From: an uncultured Clostridia bacterium
GTDB lineage: Bacteria; Bacillota; Clostridia; Lachnospirales; Lachnospiraceae
NCBI GenBank assembly: GCA_947174885.1
Contig: CAMWKO010000006.1
Coordinates: forward strand, 47,210 to 111,209
DNA: 64,000 nt
Direction of reading: 5' to 3'
Part shown: positions 1-47,294 of the stretch, one piece after another
Position numbering within the stretch: the stretch's first letter is position 1
Layout of the letters: every line of letters starts with the position of its first letter
Position numbers and translations under genes: made by a program
The notes under the pieces: generated by a model
Seen by the model: the letters and a program-made list of their open reading frames with translations, nothing else
Databases searched by the model: none
What the model was told of the DNA's origin: nothing

Positions 1-187
1 AAGTACCATTGCTTTCCACTTTCATCATAACAATTAAACCATTAACAGAGTCTACACTCACTTTAAGAGCATTTGCAGATACTTTGCTATCAACAATATA
101 CCATGCAAATATGGCACTTGAGACAAATGCTGTCATAACTAACGAAATAAATATGAACTTTTTATGCTTTGTGATTAATTTTTTCAT
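1..187 (-). CDS. Partial (truncated by window edge) single-pass protein with SipW/TasA-like N-terminus
   Basis: Reverse strand reads MKKLITKHKKFIFISLVMTAFVSSAIFAWYIVDSKVSANALKVSVDSVNGL...; starts 2 nt after the stop of the upstream ORF; N-terminus resembles that of 3207..4040. Confidence 0.65.
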   Translation of the reverse strand, partial: MKKLITKHKKFIFISLVMTAFVSSAIFAWYIVDSKVSANALKVSVDSVNGLIVMMKVESNGT

Positions 188-189
188 CC

Positions 190-1452
190 TTAATCCTCTT
201 TGCGTTCTGTACTGGTCTTAAGCTTCTGATGTTTTCTTGCTTCTCTTTCTGCCGCCTTTTTTCTCTTTTTTTCCATTTTTTGCACTCTTAATACTTCATT
301 GTTACGCTTATTCTGCAAATCTACAAGCTCCTTTGTAACAATTTTTCTCAAGGTAGTATCCGGCATATTTGTATATTTAACGATTTCATTTAATAGCTGA
401 CGAATCTGGTCTATACCAAAATCTCTTTTTTGTTTTTTCTTTTCTTCGTCAATATAAAGTGGAGTTTCCACCTGATTCTGAAGCATTATGTAATTCCAAA
501 TCATGGAATTATACATATCCTTCTCAAACTGTTTACTTATAATAGGCTCCTGCTTTACTATTTCAACCTTATATCCAATCTTTGTATATGAGTAGATAAA
601 GTTCCAAAGCTTATGACACGCTTTATAGTATTTGTTTTTACCTATAACATTAGTCTTAATAATAGGATGTTTAACCATTGGAAGACTACGCATAGCATTG
701 ATGAACTCTGTATTTACAAGGCTGTTTACATCTCTATGAATTTTGATAATTCTTTTGAAAATATCATCATTTTCTGTTTCATTATAAACATCTGTCTGCT
801 TATCTCTGATTTTAATCTGTGTTCTAAATTCTACCATCTCGGTATTGCTATCCACACGGCTTTCGTATTCATAGAAAGTACCTATTTCATCCTTACTGGC
901 TTCAAACAGTACATTATATCTTTTATTTACAAACATCTGAAGCTCTGCCAGTAATGTGCATATAAATCTATTTTCGTATATATTGTAGCTTTCTTCCTTA
1001 AATACATTTAATATTCTGTTTGGAATTACAGTTCCGTCCTTTTCATCAAACTTATCAATCATATTACTATGCTGAATAAGATGCCTTAAAGATTCAGAGG
1101 TAATATTTCTTGCCATGGCTATATTTACGATTTCCCTCTCCTCTTCAATGAATTTTCTAGGATTCATAACCGTATAATATAAAGAAGGAAGTGCTTCTTC
1201 AATGGCATTTACCCAGTCTTCATCTACAGTCTTTACAAGTCTTATATTTGTAAAATTACAATAGTTCATACTATTTTGAAGCAAATTATAGTAGTAATTG
1301 TAAAATTCATCATCATCTAGTTTTTCGCCGCCAAAGCTATTCATATTGTTATAAGTTATATTTAGTAACGTACCCTTTTTTTCAAGTACATTATCTGTAT
1401 TATCCATTTTAGTATTATCAGCGGCATTTGACATATTATCCACATCTTCCAC
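190..1452 (-). CDS. DUF2357/McrC N-terminal-like protein, no recognisable nuclease domain
   Basis: ORF 420 aa; 'YNIYENRFICTLLAEL' and 'NKYYKACHKLWNFI' segments resemble DUF2357/McrC-N; Lys/Arg-rich C-terminus; directly follows a McrB-like AAA+ gene. Confidence 0.6.
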   Translation of the reverse strand: MEDVDNMSNAADNTKMDNTDNVLEKKGTLLNITYNNMNSFGGEKLDDDEFYNYYYNLLQNSMNYCNFTNIRLVKTVDEDWVNAIEEALPSLYYTVMNPRKFIEEEREIVNIAMARNITSESLRHLIQHSNMIDKFDEKDGTVIPNRILNVFKEESYNIYENRFICTLLAELQMFVNKRYNVLFEASKDEIGTFYEYESRVDSNTEMVEFRTQIKIRDKQTDVYNETENDDIFKRIIKIHRDVNSLVNTEFINAMRSLPMVKHPIIKTNVIGKNKYYKACHKLWNFIYSYTKIGYKVEIVKQEPIISKQFEKDMYNSMIWNYIMLQNQVETPLYIDEEKKKQKRDFGIDQIRQLLNEIVKYTNMPDTTLRKIVTKELVDLQNKRNNEVLRVQKMEKKRKKAAEREARKHQKLKTSTERKED

Positions 1453-1489
1453 CTCCCTTTCTGTATATTAATTTAGTAATCCTATATCA

Positions 1490-3178
1490 TTATTCGGTGC
1501 TGGCACCGGACATTCTCTTCAATCTCAGGAGATATGCTTTGCTTATCTTGAAGTTTTCTTTTCCAAATGTGGTATCAAGATATAAAATCAATCCATCTAA
1601 CTCATCTCTGATAAAACCAATACCTAGCGATTCAAACTTTCTAAGAATCTTCTTTGCAAACATAAAGTCAACGCCGTCCAGCTCAGTTCCTCCACAGCCT
1701 ACATAACATGGTACAAATGCTTTAATCTGGCGAAGAATACGGTTACCAAAGGTAATTCTAAAGTGATCAATTAAGTATCTGTCAAGTTTTTCAAGCTCCA
1801 GTATCATTTCCTCTGATATTGGATGATTTGCCTTAGCTTCTTCGTACAACTTAGACATATGATTGTAACTGATTCTCATAGGCGGTGTATCAGGTGCCTC
1901 AAACGGCTCCGCCTTATCATCCAGGTCAATCGGAATAGCACGGTCGTATACCTTATCAGATACAGCAAATGTAGAGTCATCATTGTTGATTGTTCCTACA
2001 TACCATACATTTGAAGGAATCCAAACCTTACCCTCTTTCATTTTAATCGGATCATTACCTGCTTCTGAAGAAACCACCGAGAAATATCTTTCATCTTCTC
2101 TTGGCATTTCAAGCAAAGAAAGCATCTCCGCAAAATAATACTCAACTCTGGCGATATTCATTTCGTCGAGAATAACTACTCTCATATCTTCATAGTAATG
2201 AGCTTCATATAAAGTCTTTAAAAATTCTGTTTCTGTATATTTCTTTGTAAAGTCATTGTAATATCCAAAAAGCTCTGTTCTGTCTCTCCAAGACGGCTGT
2301 ACTGAACAGATAAGACTTGGATTCTGAATAAACTGTCCGAATGCATATGGAAGAGAGGTTTTACCTGTACCGGAAATACCCTGTAAGATAAGCATTTTAG
2401 CTGCACCAAATGTAGCTATTACCTGCTTCATTATCTCTAAATCATAGTAAAGTCCAAGTCTTGAAGCCGCAAAATTTCTAAACTGTACACAGACTTCTTC
2501 AAGTGTAATATTGTTGTCATATACAGGTGGCTGATACTCCGGAGAAGCATATAGCCTGTCTACAAGACTAAGTCTTGGGAATCTAGGCTCAGAGGTATCT
2601 ACTGTTTCAATCTTTTCCTCCTCGTCTCCGCTAATCTCTCCACCGACTGCTACTACACCAAGACCTGCACCGGCATCTGCTACATCTGCAGAAGCTGCAA
2701 TATCTGCATTTGGCTCTGCCACTTCAATCCCTGCTTCATTAGCAGATTCCTCGTCTATTTTCTGTAACCTGCTTTCAAGTAATTCAGGGTTTAACTCCAT
2801 ATCCATTTCTGATATTTTCATAGCAAGGATCTTATCCTTTTCATAGTTAGCCTTCATAATTTCCCTTTTAAGCTTAACCACTTCATCCTTCATCTGCTCA
2901 TACTTGACAACAGGCACTTTAAATCTGAATAATACCTTTAATCCCTTTAATATCAGATAAATTATCAAAACAAACAGAACCAGTAATAATATGTGCATTA
3001 TAATAGCTGCAATCCACCCCAGAGGTGACATTTCCGGATAGTATGTATTAAAAAGCTCAATATAATATTTGATATCTAATAAACCAACTATGCAGTCTCT
3101 TACCGCTATAAATACATTATAAACATTCTCAAATATTGATCTCAAAAAGTTATATGAATAATAGAAAAACGCATTCAT
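1490..3178 (-). CDS. Membrane-anchored McrB-like AAA+ ATPase
   Basis: N-terminal TM helix (WIAAIIMHILLLVLFVLIIYLIL), coiled coil, Ala/acidic linker, Walker A 'GISGTGKTS', Walker B 'VVILDEMNIARVEYYF', sensor 'WYVGTINNDDSTFAVSDKVYDRA'. Confidence 0.8.
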   Translation of the reverse strand: MNAFFYYSYNFLRSIFENVYNVFIAVRDCIVGLLDIKYYIELFNTYYPEMSPLGWIAAIIMHILLLVLFVLIIYLILKGLKVLFRFKVPVVKYEQMKDEVVKLKREIMKANYEKDKILAMKISEMDMELNPELLESRLQKIDEESANEAGIEVAEPNADIAASADVADAGAGLGVVAVGGEISGDEEEKIETVDTSEPRFPRLSLVDRLYASPEYQPPVYDNNITLEEVCVQFRNFAASRLGLYYDLEIMKQVIATFGAAKMLILQGISGTGKTSLPYAFGQFIQNPSLICSVQPSWRDRTELFGYYNDFTKKYTETEFLKTLYEAHYYEDMRVVILDEMNIARVEYYFAEMLSLLEMPREDERYFSVVSSEAGNDPIKMKEGKVWIPSNVWYVGTINNDDSTFAVSDKVYDRAIPIDLDDKAEPFEAPDTPPMRISYNHMSKLYEEAKANHPISEEMILELEKLDRYLIDHFRITFGNRILRQIKAFVPCYVGCGGTELDGVDFMFAKKILRKFESLGIGFIRDELDGLILYLDTTFGKENFKISKAYLLRLKRMSGASTE

Positions 3179-3206
3179 TTGTTTTACCTTCCTTTATTGT
3201 ATTTTA

Positions 3207-4040
3207 TTAATTACCCGAAGCATTTCTTAAACTGATAGAAGAAAATTCAAAATGTCCTATTAAGTCATCTAACTCTATCGAATTAGCACAATCCTTATCC
3301 TTGCCTTCTATCCAGATTCTCATAGTAACTAATTTGTCTGTATTTGCCGGAATTGTAAATAAATATTCTGAATCATTTCCATTACCACTATCCGCAAATA
3401 TTCCTGAAGAAATTTGCTTTACAGTGGAATAGCTGTTATACCCACCCTGAAATACCAAATCCTCTGCAATCTCATTGCTCTTATTATCACCATCAAAATT
3501 TGGTTCATATACAACAGTTTCACCATCTATGGTAAAACTGATTCTAATTGCATTTGCTGCTGTATCCTCTGAACTTATTACTGCATCCTTTACATAAGTT
3601 CCTCTGTCACCTGCATTGGACGTAAGATAAATATAATAATCATCCTCACTACCTCTACCCTCACAATCCACTTTCAGGTAAAACTGTTTTTCATATATAT
3701 ACTTCGTTGTAAGCTCCTGCATATCTGTAATCTTCTCTACGCTGACCACTCTGCTGCCGGAATATACGGGAGAATAAAACTCTCTGCCTTCAAGTGTTGT
3801 AACAGGATTTAATATAGCATTTGCATCATTAGATGTTGTTAGATCTATTTCACTACCATATGTACCGGGTACATTACCATTTACGTTGGCAATCAGAAGA
3901 TCTCCCTCCGTTCCTGCCGACAACGCCAAATTATTTACATTTGCTTTATTCCTGACTGAAAACCAACCATATGCAATAGTAGAAACAAGTAATACTAATA
4001 TAGCTACTACAACTATTTTTTTAATATTTTTCTTCTTCAT
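3207..4040 (-). CDS. Secreted/membrane-anchored protein with SipW-cognate/TasA-like N-terminus
   Basis: MKKKNIKKIVVVAILVLLVSTIAYGWFSVRNKANVNNLALSAG...; beta-rich ectodomain. Confidence 0.6.
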   Translation of the reverse strand: MKKKNIKKIVVVAILVLLVSTIAYGWFSVRNKANVNNLALSAGTEGDLLIANVNGNVPGTYGSEIDLTTSNDANAILNPVTTLEGREFYSPVYSGSRVVSVEKITDMQELTTKYIYEKQFYLKVDCEGRGSEDDYYIYLTSNAGDRGTYVKDAVISSEDTAANAIRISFTIDGETVVYEPNFDGDNKSNEIAEDLVFQGGYNSYSTVKQISSGIFADSGNGNDSEYLFTIPANTDKLVTMRIWIEGKDKDCANSIELDDLIGHFEFSSISLRNASGN

Positions 4041-4056
4041 ATGTTTCTTCTCCTAT

Positions 4057-4950
4057 CTAATAGTTAAATTTCATAAACAACTCAACCCAGCCTCCTAATA
4101 TGTCATCAACACATTCAGGATCTTCGCCCTCATACCAGATTACAACTGTATATTTATCATATTCATTAGTTTCAATGCCAAGTCTGTTTCCACTGCATAC
4201 TATTCTATCTGTTTCAAACGGTACAGTTGTAAGTTTATTAATTGTGTCATAATTGAAGACTCCGATATAATCCTCTGCATTTTCTCCCAATTCTTCAATT
4301 CCGACCTGTTTGTACTGTGTTTCTCCTATTTCACTTGCATCCGTAAAAGGAAACTGCGATACAGAATACTGTGTTTCAGCTTCACCATTTGCTCCCTGCA
4401 TGGCATAAGTTATCTGCTTATCATTTTTGTAAAACATTACCCACATTGCCTTATCAGCTCCCTTTGCGGAATTTCTGATTTCAAGTGAATAGTGATAATC
4501 CCTTGTTTCTTTCCCAAAGTAGCCTAAATAGAAGGTATATGCTACATAGTTTCTTCCATTGTGCTGTCCGTTTACCTCAGCTACATTTAAAGCAATATCA
4601 AATACATTTATGTTATTTGCATTAATAACCGCATCACTGTTTAAGGTAATCAGCCTTTCGCTAAAATCAGTAGTTTCTGACAAATAGAAGCCGTCATCTG
4701 CCATATTGCTGTCAATATTAATTACAAATTCTCCTGATTCAGTATAAATAGCTGCAATCATAAAATATATAGTCAGAATTATAACTATAATTATAATTGT
4801 CTGCCTTGCAGCCTTAACCCTGAAAAGACTTCTGGTGACACTTACGCCACCCATATACCAGTGTTTAAATCTGTTTATCCAATCAAACCGGCTTACTAAA
4901 GTTCTTTTAGGAATATTATTTTTTATTTCTTTATCCTTATGTTTCTTCAT
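4057..4950 (-). CDS. Single-pass membrane protein with extracytoplasmic domain
   Basis: Internal N-terminal TM (TIIIIVIILTIYFMIAAIYTESGEFVI), operonic spacing, C-terminal 'VVIWYEGEDPECVDDILGGWVELFMKF' resembles C-terminal 'MRIWIEGKDKDCANSIELDDLIGHFEF' of 3207..4040. Confidence 0.6.
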   Translation of the reverse strand: MKKHKDKEIKNNIPKRTLVSRFDWINRFKHWYMGGVSVTRSLFRVKAARQTIIIIVIILTIYFMIAAIYTESGEFVINIDSNMADDGFYLSETTDFSERLITLNSDAVINANNINVFDIALNVAEVNGQHNGRNYVAYTFYLGYFGKETRDYHYSLEIRNSAKGADKAMWVMFYKNDKQITYAMQGANGEAETQYSVSQFPFTDASEIGETQYKQVGIEELGENAEDYIGVFNYDTINKLTTVPFETDRIVCSGNRLGIETNEYDKYTVVIWYEGEDPECVDDILGGWVELFMKFNY

Positions 4951-5593
4951 TTTCGCTCATCACAATCCATTCTTTAAATCTATCATATAACCATGGGTCA
5001 AACTGACTTCCTCTGTCACGTTCCATTATCTCAACTGCCACCTTTTTACTAATCTGACTGGCCCTATAGGGTTTCCAGCTGGTAATACCGTCAAGAGTAT
5101 CTACCAATGCACAGACTCTTGCACAAAACGGAATATTTTCCCCCTCCAGATTTTCAGGATATCCTCTGCCATCATATCTCTCGTGATGATATAATGATAT
5201 TTTAAATAAAGTCATCATTATTTCATCAGGAAAGGGATTTTGATATATTGATTCAATAGCCTGAATAGCATATGTAGTATGATTTTTTATAATCCTCATT
5301 TCTTCATCTGTCAATTTTTCAACTTTATTCAATATTGATACAGGAATGAAACTTCTCCCAATGTCATGATAACAGAAAACCTCTTTAGAATAGAGTGGAA
5401 ACTCCTTTCCGAACTCTCTGTCAATTAATTCAGCATCTGTCTGTCTTAAATACCGATAAAAGGAATCACCATATTCCGATACTCTTTCCATATGACCACG
5501 CGTAGAAATTGGCAGAATACTATATAGCCCTTTAATAGATGAATATTTTCCCTTTTGTGCAGGTGAAATTAAATTTCTGTCTTTCGTAAACAC
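4937..5593 (-). CDS. HD-GYP-like domain protein
   Basis: 'YHDIGRSFIPVSIL', 'HTTYAIQAIESI', 'YHHERYDGRGYPENL'; overlaps next ORF by 14 nt. Confidence 0.85.
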   Translation of the reverse strand: MFTKDRNLISPAQKGKYSSIKGLYSILPISTRGHMERVSEYGDSFYRYLRQTDAELIDREFGKEFPLYSKEVFCYHDIGRSFIPVSILNKVEKLTDEEMRIIKNHTTYAIQAIESIYQNPFPDEIMMTLFKISLYHHERYDGRGYPENLEGENIPFCARVCALVDTLDGITSWKPYRASQISKKVAVEIMERDRGSQFDPWLYDRFKEWIVMSENEET

Positions 5594-5810
5594 GCTCTTC
5601 TCCTTAATTGAATATATACAACCAATTCATATTTTTTGAAAATAGAATTTGAAAATTCATTTTCACTTCGCATTTTATATCTCAAATATTTACTCTTCTA
5701 TTCTAGTACTTATTACCTATATTGTCAATAAAAGCAGTTATAAATAATAAATAAAAAGCAAGTATTTATTACTATTTTTACAATTATTTTACAAAATATT
5801 AATTGTTTTT

Positions 5811-7421: not shown

Positions 7422-8738
7422 CTAATTCTGTTTTTCTACAGTTCCACTAATATAGTTTATAAACTGCTTTGCAGTTCTGCCTGAGATACCTCCATGGCTT
7501 AACTCCCATGCATTTGCTTTATTACACAGTTCCTCATCTGACATAGATATATTAAGTTTATGCGCCATTTCCTTTACTATTTCAAAATATTCTTTTTGAC
7601 TAGGCTTTGAGAAATTTATAGTTACACCAAATCTATTTACCAGAGATAATTTTTCCTGCATTGTATCTGATTTGTGCATACCGTTTTCCACTTCCATATC
7701 ATTTCTGTCATTCCAGGTTTCTTTGATCAGATGTCTTCTGTTAGAGGTAGCATAAATCAGTATATTATCAGGTTTTGTTTCCACACCGCCTTCTATTACA
7801 GCCTTTAAAAACTTATATTCGGTTTCAAATTCTTCAAAAGACAAATCATCCATATATATAATAAATTTGTAATTCCTATTCTTTATAACAGAAATGAGAT
7901 TTGATAAATCCTTAAACTGATGCTTATATATCTCTATCATTCTAAGACCTTCTTCATAAAACTCATTAACAATAGCCTTTATACTTGTCGACTTACCCGT
8001 ACCACTGTCACCAAATAGAAGACAGTTATTTGCCTTTCTGCCCTCAACAAAGGCTTTGGTATTATCTACCAGCTTCTGCTTTTGAATTTCATAGCCAATT
8101 AAGTCATCTAATACAACCTTGTCCATATTGTTGATTGGTAAGAAGCTGATATCTCCATTCTCATTACTCTTTATTCTGAAAGCCTTGTTAAGTCCGAACA
8201 TACCAATACCATAATCCTTGTAAAACGAAGTAATAATATCAAAAAAATCATTTTCATCCTTTGCCAATTCCAGTTTTTCGCTTAATCCTCTTACCTTCTC
8301 ACTTACATTTTTGTTGTACATAAGCTCCGGTTTTACAATTGCATGATAATCGGTAATAACAGAAAAGCAGTCAATGCCAAGCTTTTCTTCTATATACGAA
8401 AAATCATAATCAAATAGCTGCTTAAAAATTTTAAAATCACTTTTGGCAAATAAATTTACACTGCCCTCTTTTGCCCCTGCTTTTTCGCAGGTAATTGTAA
8501 ACGGGTTTTCATTAGTTATGAGCAGATATGTAAGATAATTATGCCATAAATTCTTATCAAACGCATAGTCTGTAGCTGTCTCCAGAAGTTTTTTAATCTG
8601 CTTATATATGTTTGTAACTAAAATGTCTTTCTCAAAGTTTTCTTTTTTAACTTCCCTGCAAATGTTACACAGCTCCATTAAAATACTATTCTCATCCATA
8701 TCTCCATATAATAAAAGCTTTGAAACTATATCATTCAT
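7422..8738 (-). CDS. DUF815-family ATP-binding protein
   Basis: Walker A 'LLFGDSGTGKSTSIKA', 'FIIYMDDLSFEEFETEYKFLKAVIEGGVETKPDNILIYATSNRRHLI'. Confidence 0.9.
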   Translation of the reverse strand: MNDIVSKLLLYGDMDENSILMELCNICREVKKENFEKDILVTNIYKQIKKLLETATDYAFDKNLWHNYLTYLLITNENPFTITCEKAGAKEGSVNLFAKSDFKIFKQLFDYDFSYIEEKLGIDCFSVITDYHAIVKPELMYNKNVSEKVRGLSEKLELAKDENDFFDIITSFYKDYGIGMFGLNKAFRIKSNENGDISFLPINNMDKVVLDDLIGYEIQKQKLVDNTKAFVEGRKANNCLLFGDSGTGKSTSIKAIVNEFYEEGLRMIEIYKHQFKDLSNLISVIKNRNYKFIIYMDDLSFEEFETEYKFLKAVIEGGVETKPDNILIYATSNRRHLIKETWNDRNDMEVENGMHKSDTMQEKLSLVNRFGVTINFSKPSQKEYFEIVKEMAHKLNISMSDEELCNKANAWELSHGGISGRTAKQFINYISGTVEKQN

Positions 8739-11201: not shown

Positions 11202-13994
11202 CTAGTCCCTGCCTAATCGTATCCTTTCCAGATATTCCCTGAATTCCTTATCCAGGCTGTCAAACAGATATGACTTTCCACCACTTCTTTTTGCACAAAA
11301 TTCTTCTTTCGCAGCCTGTAAGGAATTCTCTATTTCTTTCTTCAGTTCTCTGGAGGATAACAGCAGGCAGCCTGCTCCACGTATTATTATCTGCTCCATT
11401 CCGTCAGAGGTTGCTACTGTAATCTTATATTTTTTGGCATTGTCATGGGCAAACTTTTCTATATATGCGTCCGCAGTCTGACTCTCCTTTGTATAAACCA
11501 CATATATATTATGATATCTGTTCATGCTTCCGGTATTCCCCTGAACTTTATATGCATCAAACACTACCATAAGCCTGCATTTTTTAATCCCCTGATAGTT
11601 GCATAAAATATCCATAAGCTTATCTCTTGCTGCATCAATATTCATCTTTGCCAGTTCACTTAATTCCTCCCATGCAAATATAACATTATAACCGTCTACC
11701 AATAAATATTCCTCTGTTTTGACGTTTTCCTTTCCATACTTTCTTTCATTGTTTCTGTTATTATACTTATTGTCAATAAATCTGTTTCCAAAAGAATTAC
11801 CTGCTCCCACAGAATTATTGCTTTTCAAATTGTCCGCATAATTATTTGTTATATAATCTGTATTTTCCTGATTATATTTTCTGGATTTTTGTTTACCATA
11901 TGTTCTTTCAAAAATTGCTTCCAGTTCTCTATCTAATATTCCATAATCATTAGCCTTATCATATGAATTTAAACTTCCTCCTTTATATTCTTTTAAATTA
12001 CTGCCAATATTTATATGCCCGTTAATTGGAGTATTTATAATTTCACCTTCTGAAGCCGCCTCATAGCTGTTAATTTGTATAAAATCTTCTACTTTATCAT
12101 AGCTTACCACATATCCTGCTCCATTGACACAGAATATGGAATGCGGTGTATTTTCTATATCAGCTAAAGCGTCATATCCTATCCTTTCTACTACCTCGGA
12201 TTGATTATGACACTCCTTATATCCGCATACGCTGACATTAATTCTTCCCTTTCCCTTAGAATATGCTGCAAGCTCCATAGGATAATTCATCATGGTTTCT
12301 ACCGGTGCTATACCTGTAATAATTGTACTTTCCTTATCTATCACAGGAGGCTCAAACCTTGCACTAAGCCTTTCCAAATCCGTCATAGCCCTGCCTGTAT
12401 ATTCGCTTGGAATTTCAAGCACAAAATCATACACAGGCTCCAACAGAATACTGTTTGCCTTCATCAATCCCTGTCTTATTGCTCTATATGTTGCCTGTCT
12501 GAAATCACCGCCCTCTGTATGCTTTTTGTGTGCTTTACCACCTATAATTACAATTTCTGCATCTGTCAGCTCACTGCCCGTCAATACTCCCTTATGTGAT
12601 TTTTCTTTAATATGTGTAGCTATAAGTTTTTGCCAGTTTATAGCTAATCTGTCAACACTCACCTCTGAAGATACCTTTATACCGCTTCCCCTCTCAAGTG
12701 GTTTTATCATTAAATGTACCTCTGCATAATGTCTTAACGGCTCATAATGACCTACACCTGTAACACTCTCTGAAATTGTTTCCTTATATACGATATTCCC
12801 CTTTCCAAACTCCAACTCTATATCAAATCTTTCCCTGATTATACTCTTTAATATTTCTGTCTGAATCTGCCCCATCAGTTTTATTTCTATTTCCTTTAAT
12901 GTATCATTCCAGCCTATTTCAAGCGAAGGGTCTTCTTCATTTAATATCTTAATTGTGTTATATACCTTTAGTGTATCCGCACCCTCCGGTAATTCTACCT
13001 TATAGCTAAGTACCGGCTCAATATCCATGGATGTATCTGACTTTTCTTTTCCGATGCCCATTCCGGCATATGATTTACTCAGTCCGGTAACTGCTACTAC
13101 CATACCGGCTTTTGCTTCATTAACCATTACATATTTTGTACCTGAATATATTCTTATCTGATTAATCTTTTCACTCATATCCTCGCTAAAGTCTATTACT
13201 TCTTTAGCCTTTAGGCTTCCACCTGTTATCTTTATGTGTGTAAGACGGTTTCCCTGCTCATCACCTGATATTTTAAACACTTTACCTGATAATTCTTTTT
13301 CTCTTTCTATAGATGTATACTTTTCAATTCCCTCTAAAAGCTTGTCCACCCCTGACAGTTTAAGTGCCGAGCCAAAATAACAGGGGATTATTTTTCCTGA
13401 TTTGATTACTTCCGATATCTCTTTATCTGATATTTCTTCCTCTGCAAAATATTTTTCCATTAAAGCTTCTTCGCATCCGGCAATATTTTCAAAAAACAGA
13501 CTGTCGGTATCCGTAAAATCTACAAAGCTTCCCTTTAATTTTGTACTTAGCTCCTCTAATATTTCTGCTTTATCCCTATATGTCATATCCATTTTATTTA
13601 CAAAAACAAAAGTAGGAATACTATATTTCAAAAGCAGTCTCCACAATGTAAAGGTATGACTTTGCAGTCTGTCACTGCCGTTTATTACAAGTATGGCATA
13701 ATCCAGAACCTTTAGCGTCCGTTCCATTTCAGCACTGAAATCTGTATGACCAGGTGTATCTAAAAGATACATATTTGTGTCCTTATAGCTGATTAATGCC
13801 TGCTTTGAAAATATAGTTATTCCTCTTTGTTTTTCAAGGGAATGCGTGTCTAAAAACGCATCCCCATGATCTACCCTGCCTACTTTTCTAACACTTCCAC
13901 TTATATATAGCATAGCCTCTGACAATGTGGTCTTTCCTGAATCCACATGAGCCAGAACTCCTATTGTAATATTCTTCTTTTCCATATTATTCAT
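11202..13994 (-). CDS. TetM-like/EF-G-family translation GTPase fused to C-terminal YacP/Rae1-like NYN RNase domain
   Basis: G1 '[10 protein letters not shown]', G3 'DTPGHTDF', G4 'NKMD', EF-G domain III-V; Asn-rich linker; C-terminal '[16 protein letters not shown]...[11 protein letters not shown]...[18 protein letters not shown]...[17 protein letters not shown]'. Confidence 0.9.
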
Positions 13995-16250: not shown

Positions 16251-16292
16251 GAGCCAAGGTCAATCAATTCTGACCTTGGCTCGCTTATTTTT
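16251..16292 (+). terminator. Rho-independent terminator after degV-family gene
   Basis: GAGCCAAGGTCA-atcaattc-TGACCTTGGCTC followed by gcttattttttt. Confidence 0.9.
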
Positions 16293-17362
16293 TAATTCAT
16301 AATATTCTGCGTATTAGCAATTATTTCATCCTTTGCCAATTCAAAACATTCTAACAGCTTAGGTGAAAATGTACCACACTCTCCTGCATTAATCATTCTG
16401 ATAGCCTCTTCAATACCATATGCATCTTTATAGCAACGCTTACTTATCAATGCATCATATACATCTACTATAGATACAACCTGTGCCCAAATAGGAATTT
16501 CATCTCCCGAAAGCCCATCAGGATATCCTTTACCGTCATATCTCTCATGATGATATCTGCATATATCATAGCAGTAACGATAAAACTCATTTTCCTCCTG
16601 ATTAAACTTTTCAAGTAATTCGCATCCATATATGGTATGCTTTTTCATTTCTTCAAATTCTTCCGGAGTAAATCTGCCCGGCTTTAACAAAATACTATCA
16701 GGAATAGCGATTTTACCAACATCATGCAAGGCACTGGCATTTACAATCAAATCTACCTGTTCCTTTGTAAGCTTATATTCCGGAAAATGCTTTCTTATAT
16801 AGTTGAGCAGTATCTTAGTAAACTCTTTTACTCTTTTTATATGATCTCCTGACTCAAGACTTCTAAATTCTACAACTGAACTAAGTGCGTTTACAAGGAA
16901 ATCATTACTTTTTTCCAGCTTTTCCCTGCTTTCAATTAATTCCCTAGTTCTTTCCTCAAGCTGTCTTTCTACATCTATTCTATGCTCGAACAGCTCGATA
17001 ATATTTGTTGTTCTTCTCATAACAACTCTTGGTGCAAAAGGCTTATATATAATATCTGATGCACCATATTCATATGCTTTCTCATCACTTTCAGCAGTTG
17101 CTTCACCGGTAATCATAATAACAGGGATTATATCTATTAAATCCTTATCATTCATATACTCCAAAACATCTAAACCTGATTTTTTAGGCATCATTAAGTC
17201 TAGGAAAACAAGAGAAAGCTTTTCTTTATTTTCCTCTATTTTGGAAATTGCTTCTTCTCCGTCTACTGCCATAATAATGTTAAACGTTCCTTCAAAAATG
17301 TAGTTCAATATGTCTCTGTTGATTTCAGCATCATCAGCTATTAATACCGTCTTCTTTTCCAT
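16292..17362 (-). CDS. Response regulator REC + HD-GYP phosphodiesterase
   Basis: N-terminal REC 'VLIADDAEINRDIL...LVFLDLMMP'; 'LHDVGKIAIPDSILLKPG', 'YHHERYDGKGYPDGLSGDEIP'. Confidence 0.95.
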   Translation of the reverse strand: MEKKTVLIADDAEINRDILNYIFEGTFNIIMAVDGEEAISKIEENKEKLSLVFLDLMMPKKSGLDVLEYMNDKDLIDIIPVIMITGEATAESDEKAYEYGASDIIYKPFAPRVVMRRTTNIIELFEHRIDVERQLEERTRELIESREKLEKSNDFLVNALSSVVEFRSLESGDHIKRVKEFTKILLNYIRKHFPEYKLTKEQVDLIVNASALHDVGKIAIPDSILLKPGRFTPEEFEEMKKHTIYGCELLEKFNQEENEFYRYCYDICRYHHERYDGKGYPDGLSGDEIPIWAQVVSIVDVYDALISKRCYKDAYGIEEAIRMINAGECGTFSPKLLECFELAKDEIIANTQNIMN

Positions 17363-44779: not shown

Positions 44780-47294
44780 TACAACACTCCTTTAACACTC
44801 CATAAAAAAATACACTTGTCGCATCTACATTCAAAGAACGAGTTTGGAAATTTCTTGCAATCTGGTAAAATTGTCTATACTCATCAGATGAAAAGTATTC
44901 CATCTGTTCTTCTGTCAGTTCTATATCTTCTTTTGGTATCAACACAGCAACAGAACCATTCACTATCACATTCTCTGTGTTACGCATTACTCTTGGCTTA
45001 TAAGTCATATTAGGAGTCAAATACACATTCTGATTATTAACATACTTATAGGCACTTAAAACCTCCGCCTTATCCTTTTTGATATAGGAATCATATCCTG
45101 GTATATCAACAATTTTTTTTCCATCATCACTAATATTTCTAGACTTAATTACACGTAAACATTCTTTTCCTTTCTCCTGTGTTGTATTCGAATTTGTAAT
45201 CTGTCTGTCTCTAAAAACAATAAACTTATCAAAATCAAGTTTCTTGGAAATACTATCAAAGAAATCATCCCTGTAGATTATCCAATAGGGATACGTTTTA
45301 TCCGTAATATATTTTTGATTTTGGATAATACTTTTCTTTAATGTCATAGATTCCACTTTTGTATCTTTCGGCTGACCAAGTGTATCAATAAACAAACATA
45401 TCGTTTCAATAAGTACACCTTTAAAACCATTTTCGCCGTAATCCTGAATACAATCTATTTTCTTTTCAGAAAGTAATTCTCTAGTTACATTAAACTCTGG
45501 CGTATTTAATACTGCCTTAGGCATTATCATCACAACATAATCCGCAATAGATATTGCTTTTTCTAAAAAGAATTCAAATGTATTAGTTGTATCCTTATTA
45601 ACATTGTTTTTCAAATATTTTGTTGCTTCTTTCGCTTTCAATTTTGAAAATGGCGGATTGCCGATTACTAAATCATACCTTTTCTTAAAATTATGCAACA
45701 ATGTATCTGCATGAATAAAATTCAATTTTACATTGGATGGTATTCTTTGCTTTTGCAACATTAATTCAAGAATCTGTAAATTCTTTTTATCAATATCCAC
45801 TACATCGATATTAACGCTCTTAATTCCCTCATACTTCTTGAATATAAATGGTAAGAAATTACCAACCCCAACCGATGGCTCCAATACACTAATTTCGTCT
45901 TTCTCAAAATCAGGAATCTGCTTATAAATTTCATTCAAAATAAATTTATTGGTATAGTATGCGGCATTATTATCTCTTTTAGAGTTTGTTAATTCTGCTA
46001 TCAATGCCAACGAAGCTGCACCCAAGTTGAGTGGATTATCCACTATAAACTTCATCAAATTCTCAACTTTCAACAACTTATACTCTTCTATCGTTTTACT
46101 AATCGTTGTATTTGTTAAATGCTCCTGCTCCATAAAATCCTTTATATTACAAGCAATTTGGAAGAATATCTCTGTAGGAACAGCCTCGCCAATACTCTGT
46201 CTAATCTTTATTTCTTCTTTTTTAAGCAATATACTTTTATTCGTTTCTGACAAAGCATTAAGTTCTTCTAACGACTTATCAATCCATCTAAAATCACTTG
46301 GAATAGTCATAATTTTCATAAGTTCACGAATAGAAAATACTCTATCTTCTTCTGGATGAATCGTATTCTGACTTGCAAGTTGGTCATTTCTTGTATGAAT
46401 ACATGGTGCAACCTTATCCCAATATTGACGTGTATACTTGTCCCCATTCTTCTGAATATTAGGTACAACTTTACCATCCACAATCTTATGCGGACGATTC
46501 AATTCATCTTCATTATCAAAGGCACACTCACCCTCTTTTAAATCATGAATCCAACAACGCATTTTTTCCGGATATATTCTAAATGCATGATAAAAATCTG
46601 TTGGGCATATTTCCCCCCATTCAAGCTTAGGCATATTACCAATTACTTGTTTCAAATTCATTTCTTCTACATAAGTAGGAAACAATTCAATAGGTGCAAC
46701 ATATTCAGATATTTCTTTACTCACACCAATAACAACTGTACGTGTTCTAGATGAATTTGAACCATAATTTTTAAAATTTAGAATTCTGCTAACAATTATA
46801 TATTTGTTGCTCAATTCTTCATAAATCACATCAGCTATTGATTTAATTGTTCCATCTGGTGCTGTACATACAGTTTTCATAAATGCAGCTACATTTTCGA
46901 AAATGAAAAATCTTGGATTTATCTTTTGTATTAAATGTACAGACTCTACCACTAAACTATTTCTTACAATCTCATTTTCGGTCTTTTTATGATTAGCAAC
47001 GGACATACCCTGACAAGGTGGTGTAGCAACTAAAACATCCACTTTATCATTTCCCAATTTTTCCCATCTCTTTATTTCCTCAAAAATTTTGTCCTTAGTT
47101 TCATCCTTAGTTATATCATCACAAATATATCCTGACTCATATTTACACTTATTATTAAATTTTTGAACATTCAATCTTCTTTCTATTAACTCATTTGTAG
47201 CTATACACTCAAAGCTTGCTTTCTTAAATCCAAAACAACCAACTCCTGCGCAGCTAAATAGACTTATATATGTTAATGTTTTATCTTTTAACAT
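44772..47294 (-). CDS. Fused DNA methyltransferase: N-terminal C5-cytosine MTase + C-terminal N6-adenine MTase
   Basis: C5 motifs 'LFSCAGVGCFGF', 'VATPPCQGMS', 'FIFENVAAF', 'SSRTRTVVIGV'; adenine MTase motifs 'VLEPSVGVGNFLPFIF' and 'LVIGNPPFSKL'. Confidence 0.93.
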   Translation of the reverse strand: MLKDKTLTYISLFSCAGVGCFGFKKASFECIATNELIERRLNVQKFNNKCKYESGYICDDITKDETKDKIFEEIKRWEKLGNDKVDVLVATPPCQGMSVANHKKTENEIVRNSLVVESVHLIQKINPRFFIFENVAAFMKTVCTAPDGTIKSIADVIYEELSNKYIIVSRILNFKNYGSNSSRTRTVVIGVSKEISEYVAPIELFPTYVEEMNLKQVIGNMPKLEWGEICPTDFYHAFRIYPEKMRCWIHDLKEGECAFDNEDELNRPHKIVDGKVVPNIQKNGDKYTRQYWDKVAPCIHTRNDQLASQNTIHPEEDRVFSIRELMKIMTIPSDFRWIDKSLEELNALSETNKSILLKKEEIKIRQSIGEAVPTEIFFQIACNIKDFMEQEHLTNTTISKTIEEYKLLKVENLMKFIVDNPLNLGAASLALIAELTNSKRDNNAAYYTNKFILNEIYKQIPDFEKDEISVLEPSVGVGNFLPFIFKKYEGIKSVNIDVVDIDKKNLQILELMLQKQRIPSNVKLNFIHADTLLHNFKKRYDLVIGNPPFSKLKAKEATKYLKNNVNKDTTNTFEFFLEKAISIADYVVMIMPKAVLNTPEFNVTRELLSEKKIDCIQDYGENGFKGVLIETICLFIDTLGQPKDTKVESMTLKKSIIQNQKYITDKTYPYWIIYRDDFFDSISKKLDFDKFIVFRDRQITNSNTTQEKGKECLRVIKSRNISDDGKKIVDIPGYDSYIKKDKAEVLSAYKYVNNQNVYLTPNMTYKPRVMRNTENVIVNGSVAVLIPKEDIELTEEQMEYFSSDEYRQFYQIARNFQTRSLNVDATSVFFYGVLKECCNG

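Follow-up and report, generated by a model that had tools for sequence, protein, structure and literature searches.

Can a machine of the McrBC restriction family be turned to work at the cell surface? The question is raised by a locus of an uncultured Clostridia bacterium (Lachnospiraceae), read here in a window of 64,000 nucleotides (nt), the whole stretch of DNA analysed (G000:C6:47210-111209), which starts at base 47,210 of the 111-kb contig CAMWKO010000006.1. At 2..5593 the window holds six contiguous minus-strand open reading frames (ORFs), already listed in a preliminary description of the sequence and confirmed at the same positions, in which a membrane-anchored McrB-like AAA+ NTPase and a DUF2357 protein stand among surface proteins. 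The first two genes, HD-GYP and ecto1, overlap by 14 nt, and the gaps that follow measure 16, 28, 37 and 2 nt in turn. The sixth, ecto3, is truncated by the window edge. Reading the contig leftward past this edge, a step proposed in the preliminary description, extends the operon to about C6:32,095 and adds four genes beyond ecto3, for a total of ten over about 20 kb from HD-GYP to EAL: HD-GYP, ecto1, ecto2, transmembrane (TM)-McrB, DUF2357, ecto3, ecto4, ecto5, a secreted protein of 3,695 amino acids (aa) and GGDEF-EAL. The answer we favour, with moderate confidence, is that an NTPase ring of McrBC descent, seated under the membrane, powers or gates the assembly of a surface filament linked to cyclic di-GMP (c-di-GMP).

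A membrane-anchored McrB and its nuclease-less partner

The NTPase (1490..3178, minus strand; 562 aa) carries a Walker A motif (G267ISGTGKT), a Walker B motif (LDEMN at 337), the signature GTINNDDS at 395 and a following DR at 412-413, all of them unchanged or almost so across its family; the catalytic motifs are thus intact, arginine-finger-type residues included. The Pfam model AAA_5 scores 19.8 bits on it, just under the cut-off of 22. When a profile of 16 family members was run against all PDB sequences, the sole match was E. coli McrB (E=2.9e-6). The signature, as GT[IA]NNDDS, is present in 95/95 McrB homologues, and GTINNDDSTFAVSDKVYDRA of the window protein aligns gap-free with GTVNIDETTYHFSDKVLDRA of other NxD McrBs (ten other McrB relatives). 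By this column-for-column agreement of the signature, the window ATPase is McrB-like and of the NxD type.

The membrane tether claimed in the preliminary description is a property of the whole group, as a TM segment lies ahead of Walker A in 94/94 homologues. The window protein has one clear TM segment at residues ~55-80, preceded by few basic residues and followed by many, and the positive-inside rule would accordingly place the catalytic domain in the cytosol. A charged conserved helix at ~93-125 is a coiled-coil candidate; no DivIC/FtsB match is listed for the protein in Pfam at E<=1, and no DNA-binding N-domain was found on it. In the McrB tree a branch with support 100/99 sets all TM-McrBs apart, with long branches leaving the placement of their nearest neighbours unsure.

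Directly downstream, the 420-aa product of 190..1452 (minus strand) matches PF09823 (DUF2357, McrC N-terminal-type) with 35.6 bits against a cut-off of 23.3. Its proposed lack of a nuclease is upheld: Pfam scans of 29 such partners (the window protein and 28 relatives) found no nuclease in any of them and reported DUF2357 in 20/29 as the sole meaningful match, while the positive control, the partners of soluble McrBs, gave PDDEXK_7 in 5/7 scanned. A PDDEXK_7 search of the window's own genome was uninformative, with the controls silent as well. In the relatives the DUF2357 proteins span 380-1,026 aa with very long charged tails. A structure model from 11 sequences (predicted local distance difference test, pLDDT, 63) is helical after residue 305 and ends in a long, highly charged helical tail at 365-419, at low confidence, and was discarded as too poor for use. 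Profiles built from the DUF2357 alignments met chance matches only in the PDB; one to TFIID was dismissed as a charged-helix artefact.

An operon of surface proteins kept across relatives

The distribution of the system was followed at several levels. Among 200 genomes of the same family, McrB matches (E<=1e-10) occur in 24, and reading of the loci assigned 15 to the TM type, two of them with two McrBs in tandem, and 9 to soluble relatives. A scan of species representatives added 80 loci, from Lachnospiraceae, Ruminococcus/Oscillospiraceae and other Clostridia. In a class-wide sample the TM-McrB type is present in 21/388 genomes. A phylum-wide sample returned only the window genome at that level, its two other matches (about 145 bits) scoring as the soluble relatives do. 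Neighbours were counted at the 62 loci flanked by 4 kb or more on each side, the window itself excluded and one contig present twice (L121 and G131) counted once; the loci were picked by McrB similarity and most are metagenome-assembled.

DUF2357 adjoins McrB at all 62 of these flanked loci, a SipW-type signal peptidase lies near McrB at 61, ecto1 is present at 56, and 50 loci encode two or more ectoproteins. The recurrent order is HD-GYP or EAL, ecto1, ecto2, in some cases a peptidase, McrB, DUF2357, a peptidase, further ectoproteins and a giant protein. The McrBs form 58 clusters below 90% identity with the operon conserved across them, and chance is therefore ruled out. Ten soluble McrB relatives found in those 200 family genomes have no TM segment and no peptidase or ectoprotein neighbours. 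The co-conservation of surface proteins suggested in the preliminary description is thus borne out by the survey, and the content of the conserved operon supports its idea of repurposing toward an envelope process. McrB distances correlate with those of DUF2357 and ecto1 (r about 0.87); we did not use this as proof of interaction, as it is expected from shared inheritance.

A sub-branch represented by L066/L067 (G073:C9:5397-9785) and L068/L069 (G189:C6) has two TM-McrB genes and a DUF2357 gene adjoining, together with large single-TM ectoproteins; peptidase and AWF proteins were not detected there. Tandem McrB matches occur further in G533, G547, G551, G568 and G392.

The surface proteins themselves share an architecture. 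Ecto1 (4057..4950, minus strand) consists of a basic cytosolic tail of ~47 aa, one TM segment and a conserved ectodomain. Ecto2 (3207..4040, minus strand) begins with a hydrophobic helix ending in AYGWF, followed by a mostly-beta ectodomain. Ecto3 (2..187, minus strand, the N-terminal 62 of 267 aa, with the remainder at L002:15594-16397) has IFAWY after its hydrophobic segment, and to the left of the window ecto4 (253 aa) has AYGWF and ecto5 (352 aa) ALAKYY. A small residue followed by W-[FYLI] ends the N-terminal hydrophobic segment in 159/177 homologues of ecto2, ecto3 and ecto4, and a similar rule finds such an xAWF-type motif in 0/54 other ORFs of the window. Only 6/71 ecto1 homologues show this motif, and ecto1 is thus probably an anchor that stays uncleaved. 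That its cytosolic tail is a conserved docking site was considered and found unsupported, the tail being less conserved than the ectodomain.

The AlphaFold model of ecto2 is of good quality by its own scores (pLDDT 87.4, predicted TM-score, pTM, 0.86), with an N-terminal helix and a mostly-beta domain. Foldseek against the PDB ranks FimA pilins best (E=1.4e-3) and, lower down, the TasA-like bundling pilin of Pyrobaculum (P. calidifontis; E=1.5e-2), a resemblance to donor-strand pilin folds that is suggestive only. Of the SipW/TasA-like character claimed earlier, the architecture stands. Homology to TasA or SipW-cognate proteins was rejected, with no match by Pfam, NCBIfam or PDB sequence search, and a SipW-type peptidase is absent from the window genome. 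The 3,695-aa protein encoded after ecto5 contains 20 GG-hydrophobic-G motifs, compared with 0.5 in shuffles, and no LPxTG; its C-terminal end, of the FIFT-x-x-x-LKTDM type, is common to the closer Lachnospiraceae homologues.

In the relatives the peptidase is recognised by TIGR02228 (84.9 bits, cut-off 51.85) and is also similar to SipW. It often follows DUF2357 directly, the position at which the window's DUF2357 and ecto3 genes are 2 nt apart. The window genome encodes two ordinary signal peptidase I genes only, both on contig C12. Either the window locus, which the tree nests within the clade, is an atypical member without the peptidase, or the peptidase gene lies in the unassembled part.

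Proteins with c-di-GMP domains stand at both ends of the operon. The first gene (4937..5593, minus strand; 218 aa), called HD-GYP-like before, encodes an HD-GYP c-di-GMP phosphodiesterase-type protein by HD_5 (E=2.7e-24) and the motifs YHDIG and HHERYDGRGYP. The last, left of the window, encodes a degenerate GGDEF-EAL protein of 525 aa. In relatives the first position is taken by HD-GYP, EAL or HD-GYP+EAL proteins, and ecto1 is directly preceded by an HD-GYP gene at 15 and by an EAL gene at 17 of the 51 evaluable loci (32/51). Many Ruminococcus loci (for example L142:7717-8475, L144:7484-8335, L087:3213-4664) have a first-gene EAL or HD-GYP+EAL protein without ExLxR or HHExxDGxGYP, and such proteins may, to judge from these motifs, bind c-di-GMP rather than degrade it. 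Control by an upstream c-di-GMP riboswitch was dropped, as Rfam scans of 13 loci found none. A second HD-GYP protein (16292..17362, minus strand; 356 aa, 130 bits to the operon HD-GYP profile) is unlinked to the operon.

Within the genus the system is found in 1/8 genomes. In the congener G197 the flanking genes (Ada/MGMT-like and mgtE) match in order and strand, but the roughly 3 kb that separate them hold unrelated genes and nothing of the operon. Flanks without the operon therefore mark it, on gene order, as an accessory block that is gained or lost as a unit. Read by eye, the corresponding ~3-kb stretch (L170, G197:C54:3167-5953) encodes a protein putatively of the DegV family and another, of 405 aa, whose N-terminus may be nuclease-like.

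What the ring may do

From the observed context and architecture we infer a motor role for the ring and a filamentous nature for its product. About six McrB subunits would form a ring on the inner membrane face, with the catalytic domain in the cytosol. It is established for McrBC that hydrolysis is stimulated when McrC enters the McrB ring with a basic residue and shifts the position of the signature asparagine (PMC7680126). The DUF2357 protein is a likely McrC-like activator because the domain and its place beside McrB are kept without the nuclease, and it would insert as McrC does, stimulating NTP hydrolysis. Hydrolysis would then drive or gate export or assembly of a filament built from AWF-type ectoproteins, with ecto1 as its anchor and the giant protein attached as decoration. 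That the energy of the ring would be spent on the surface proteins is proposed because these and the peptidase are the only constant partners besides DUF2357. In the relatives, the SipW-type peptidase would cut at the AWF site; in the window genome cleavage might have been lost or be carried out by ordinary signal peptidase, or the subunits might remain anchored. The HD-GYP and EAL proteins would link the apparatus to c-di-GMP.

Several observations weigh against this model. No SipW-type peptidase is present in the window operon or in the genome, which is 97.5% complete, and some Ruminococcus loci have a single ectoprotein near McrB. The ectoproteins match no Pfam or NCBIfam family, and the filament is proposed from architecture, with fold matches of ecto2 reaching TM-scores of 0.43 or less. 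The poor DUF2357 model gives no fold match, and a profile-profile comparison with nuclease-bearing partners is weak (probability 11.7%, E=0.0025), aligning no more than the YENRF/NR region. The protein is too divergent for an McrB-activating Arg/Lys to be placed.

A membrane-anchored type IV restriction or CoCoNuT-like antiphage system would see McrB detecting either nucleic acid that enters the cell or a membrane signal set off by phage, with the surface genes as effector or mere neighbours. The AAA+ domain does belong to the NxD clade, which includes CoCoNuTs (PMC11090510), and it matches the candidate-defence model PDC-M26A (E=8.7e-40); the patchy occurrence within the genus points the same way. 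However, neither McrB nor the DUF2357 protein was found to hold a nuclease or other effector domain, the partner has no PDC-M26B match, a signal peptidase and ectoproteins are what constantly accompanies the pair, and the window flanks are housekeeping genes (leuCD, mgtE). We regard a defence role as distinctly unlikely.

It is also rather unlikely that the ring acts as a MoxR/NorQ-type remodelling chaperone, which would extract, fold or quality-control anchored precursors and not power their assembly. ATPases of this AAA_5-clade type remodel client proteins (PMC9976466), and the basic cytosolic tail of ecto1 could be a client or docking site, but that tail is the less conserved part of the protein, the partner is DUF2357 and not a VWA protein, and the sequence similarity is specifically to McrB. 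The c-di-GMP-domain proteins at both operon ends, many of which in relatives lack the searched EAL or HD-GYP catalytic motifs and appear receptor-like, would also suit a regulatory switch, in which the ring, together with these proteins, would detect a signal from the envelope or from a nucleotide, setting only the expression or release of the giant protein. Such a switch leaves the constant peptidase and the multiple ectoproteins unexplained, no DNA-binding domain or riboswitch was found, and we consider it very unlikely. In our preferred reading, what was once restriction machinery now probably serves to build or control a structure of the cell surface. Its most specific form, with the McrBC-family AAA+ ring as assembly motor of a hitherto unrecognised class of c-di-GMP-linked Clostridia surface filaments, having given up nucleic acid as its substrate and doing a PilB-like job as in type IV pili, is possible and put forward tentatively.

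Flanking features and relation to described systems

Between mgtE and the HD-GYP gene lies a candidate operon promoter, TTGACA-17-TAGAAT (5700..5728, minus strand). With 11/12 matches it has the top score on that strand, equalled by one site inside the AAA+ gene; sites overall are at shuffle level, and the assignment is suggestive only. Elsewhere in the window, 7422..8738 (minus strand) encodes a 438-aa AAA+ protein, DUF815-type by eye, with weak matches to the mad8 and IetA defence models only, and 11202..13994 (minus strand) a 930-aa EF-G-like GTPase that by eye resembles ribosomal-protection proteins and has a C-terminal YacP/NYN-like segment.

The system had been presented as a candidate undescribed one. 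This does not hold for the clade, which one passage had already named CoCoPALM, with its analysis deferred (Bell et al., eLife 2024, PMC11090510). The name was based on an FtsB-like TM/coiled-coil McrB tied to signal-peptidase 'pilus assembly' genes, and the NxD McrB clade was defined there for CoCoNuTs and CoCoPALMs. As characterised in that passage, CoCoPALM shares with the window system an NxD-type McrB with N-terminal TM and charged helix, a DUF2357 partner and, in nearly all relatives, the signal-peptidase-linked operon; the window locus differs in having no signal peptidase. A coiled coil fused to the DUF2357 protein is a further CoCoPALM trait, for which the charged tail at 365-419 of the low-confidence model would be the candidate. 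For CoCoPALM, the main-text passages located by search are silent on c-di-GMP enzymes, AWF ectoproteins, a giant protein and the loss of the nuclease, and we found no other treatment in the full-text literature searched. What is new here is the operon-level evidence. The preliminary description, which had missed the c-di-GMP enzyme at each operon end, the giant secreted protein and the absence here of the peptidase of nearly all relatives, is partly supported as a whole. Neither outcome that it named as refuting arose: 190..1452 showed no nuclease, and co-conservation of the genes is strong.

Classical McrBC (E. coli, T. gammatolerans) has the same AAA+ fold, catalytic motifs and adjoining DUF2357-type activator gene, whereas the window system is membrane-anchored, has no nuclease and no DNA-binding N-domain that we could find, and sits in another operon context. 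CoCoNuT and PADLOC PDC-M26 systems share the NxD signature and the PDC-M26A match; the soluble relatives found here are TM-less, several with a PDDEXK_7 partner, whereas the window pair is neither. The Bacillus subtilis tapA-sipW-tasA operon is alike only in how it works, with a dedicated SipW-type peptidase (here in relatives) beside secreted, possibly polymerising proteins; SipW-processed TasA polymerises by donor strand (PMC9674648). That operon has no AAA+ ring, and the window system lacks a TasA match and the peptidase.

Relatives of McrB are routinely labelled as restriction or defence, and for the TM-McrB clade such automatic calls would mislead. As the clade shows, genes of the cell surface can be associated with a McrB-type ring. 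Should the motor model be true, an unrelated ATPase family would be added to the builders of bacterial surface structures, and gut and rumen Clostridia would carry a surface structure to look for directly.

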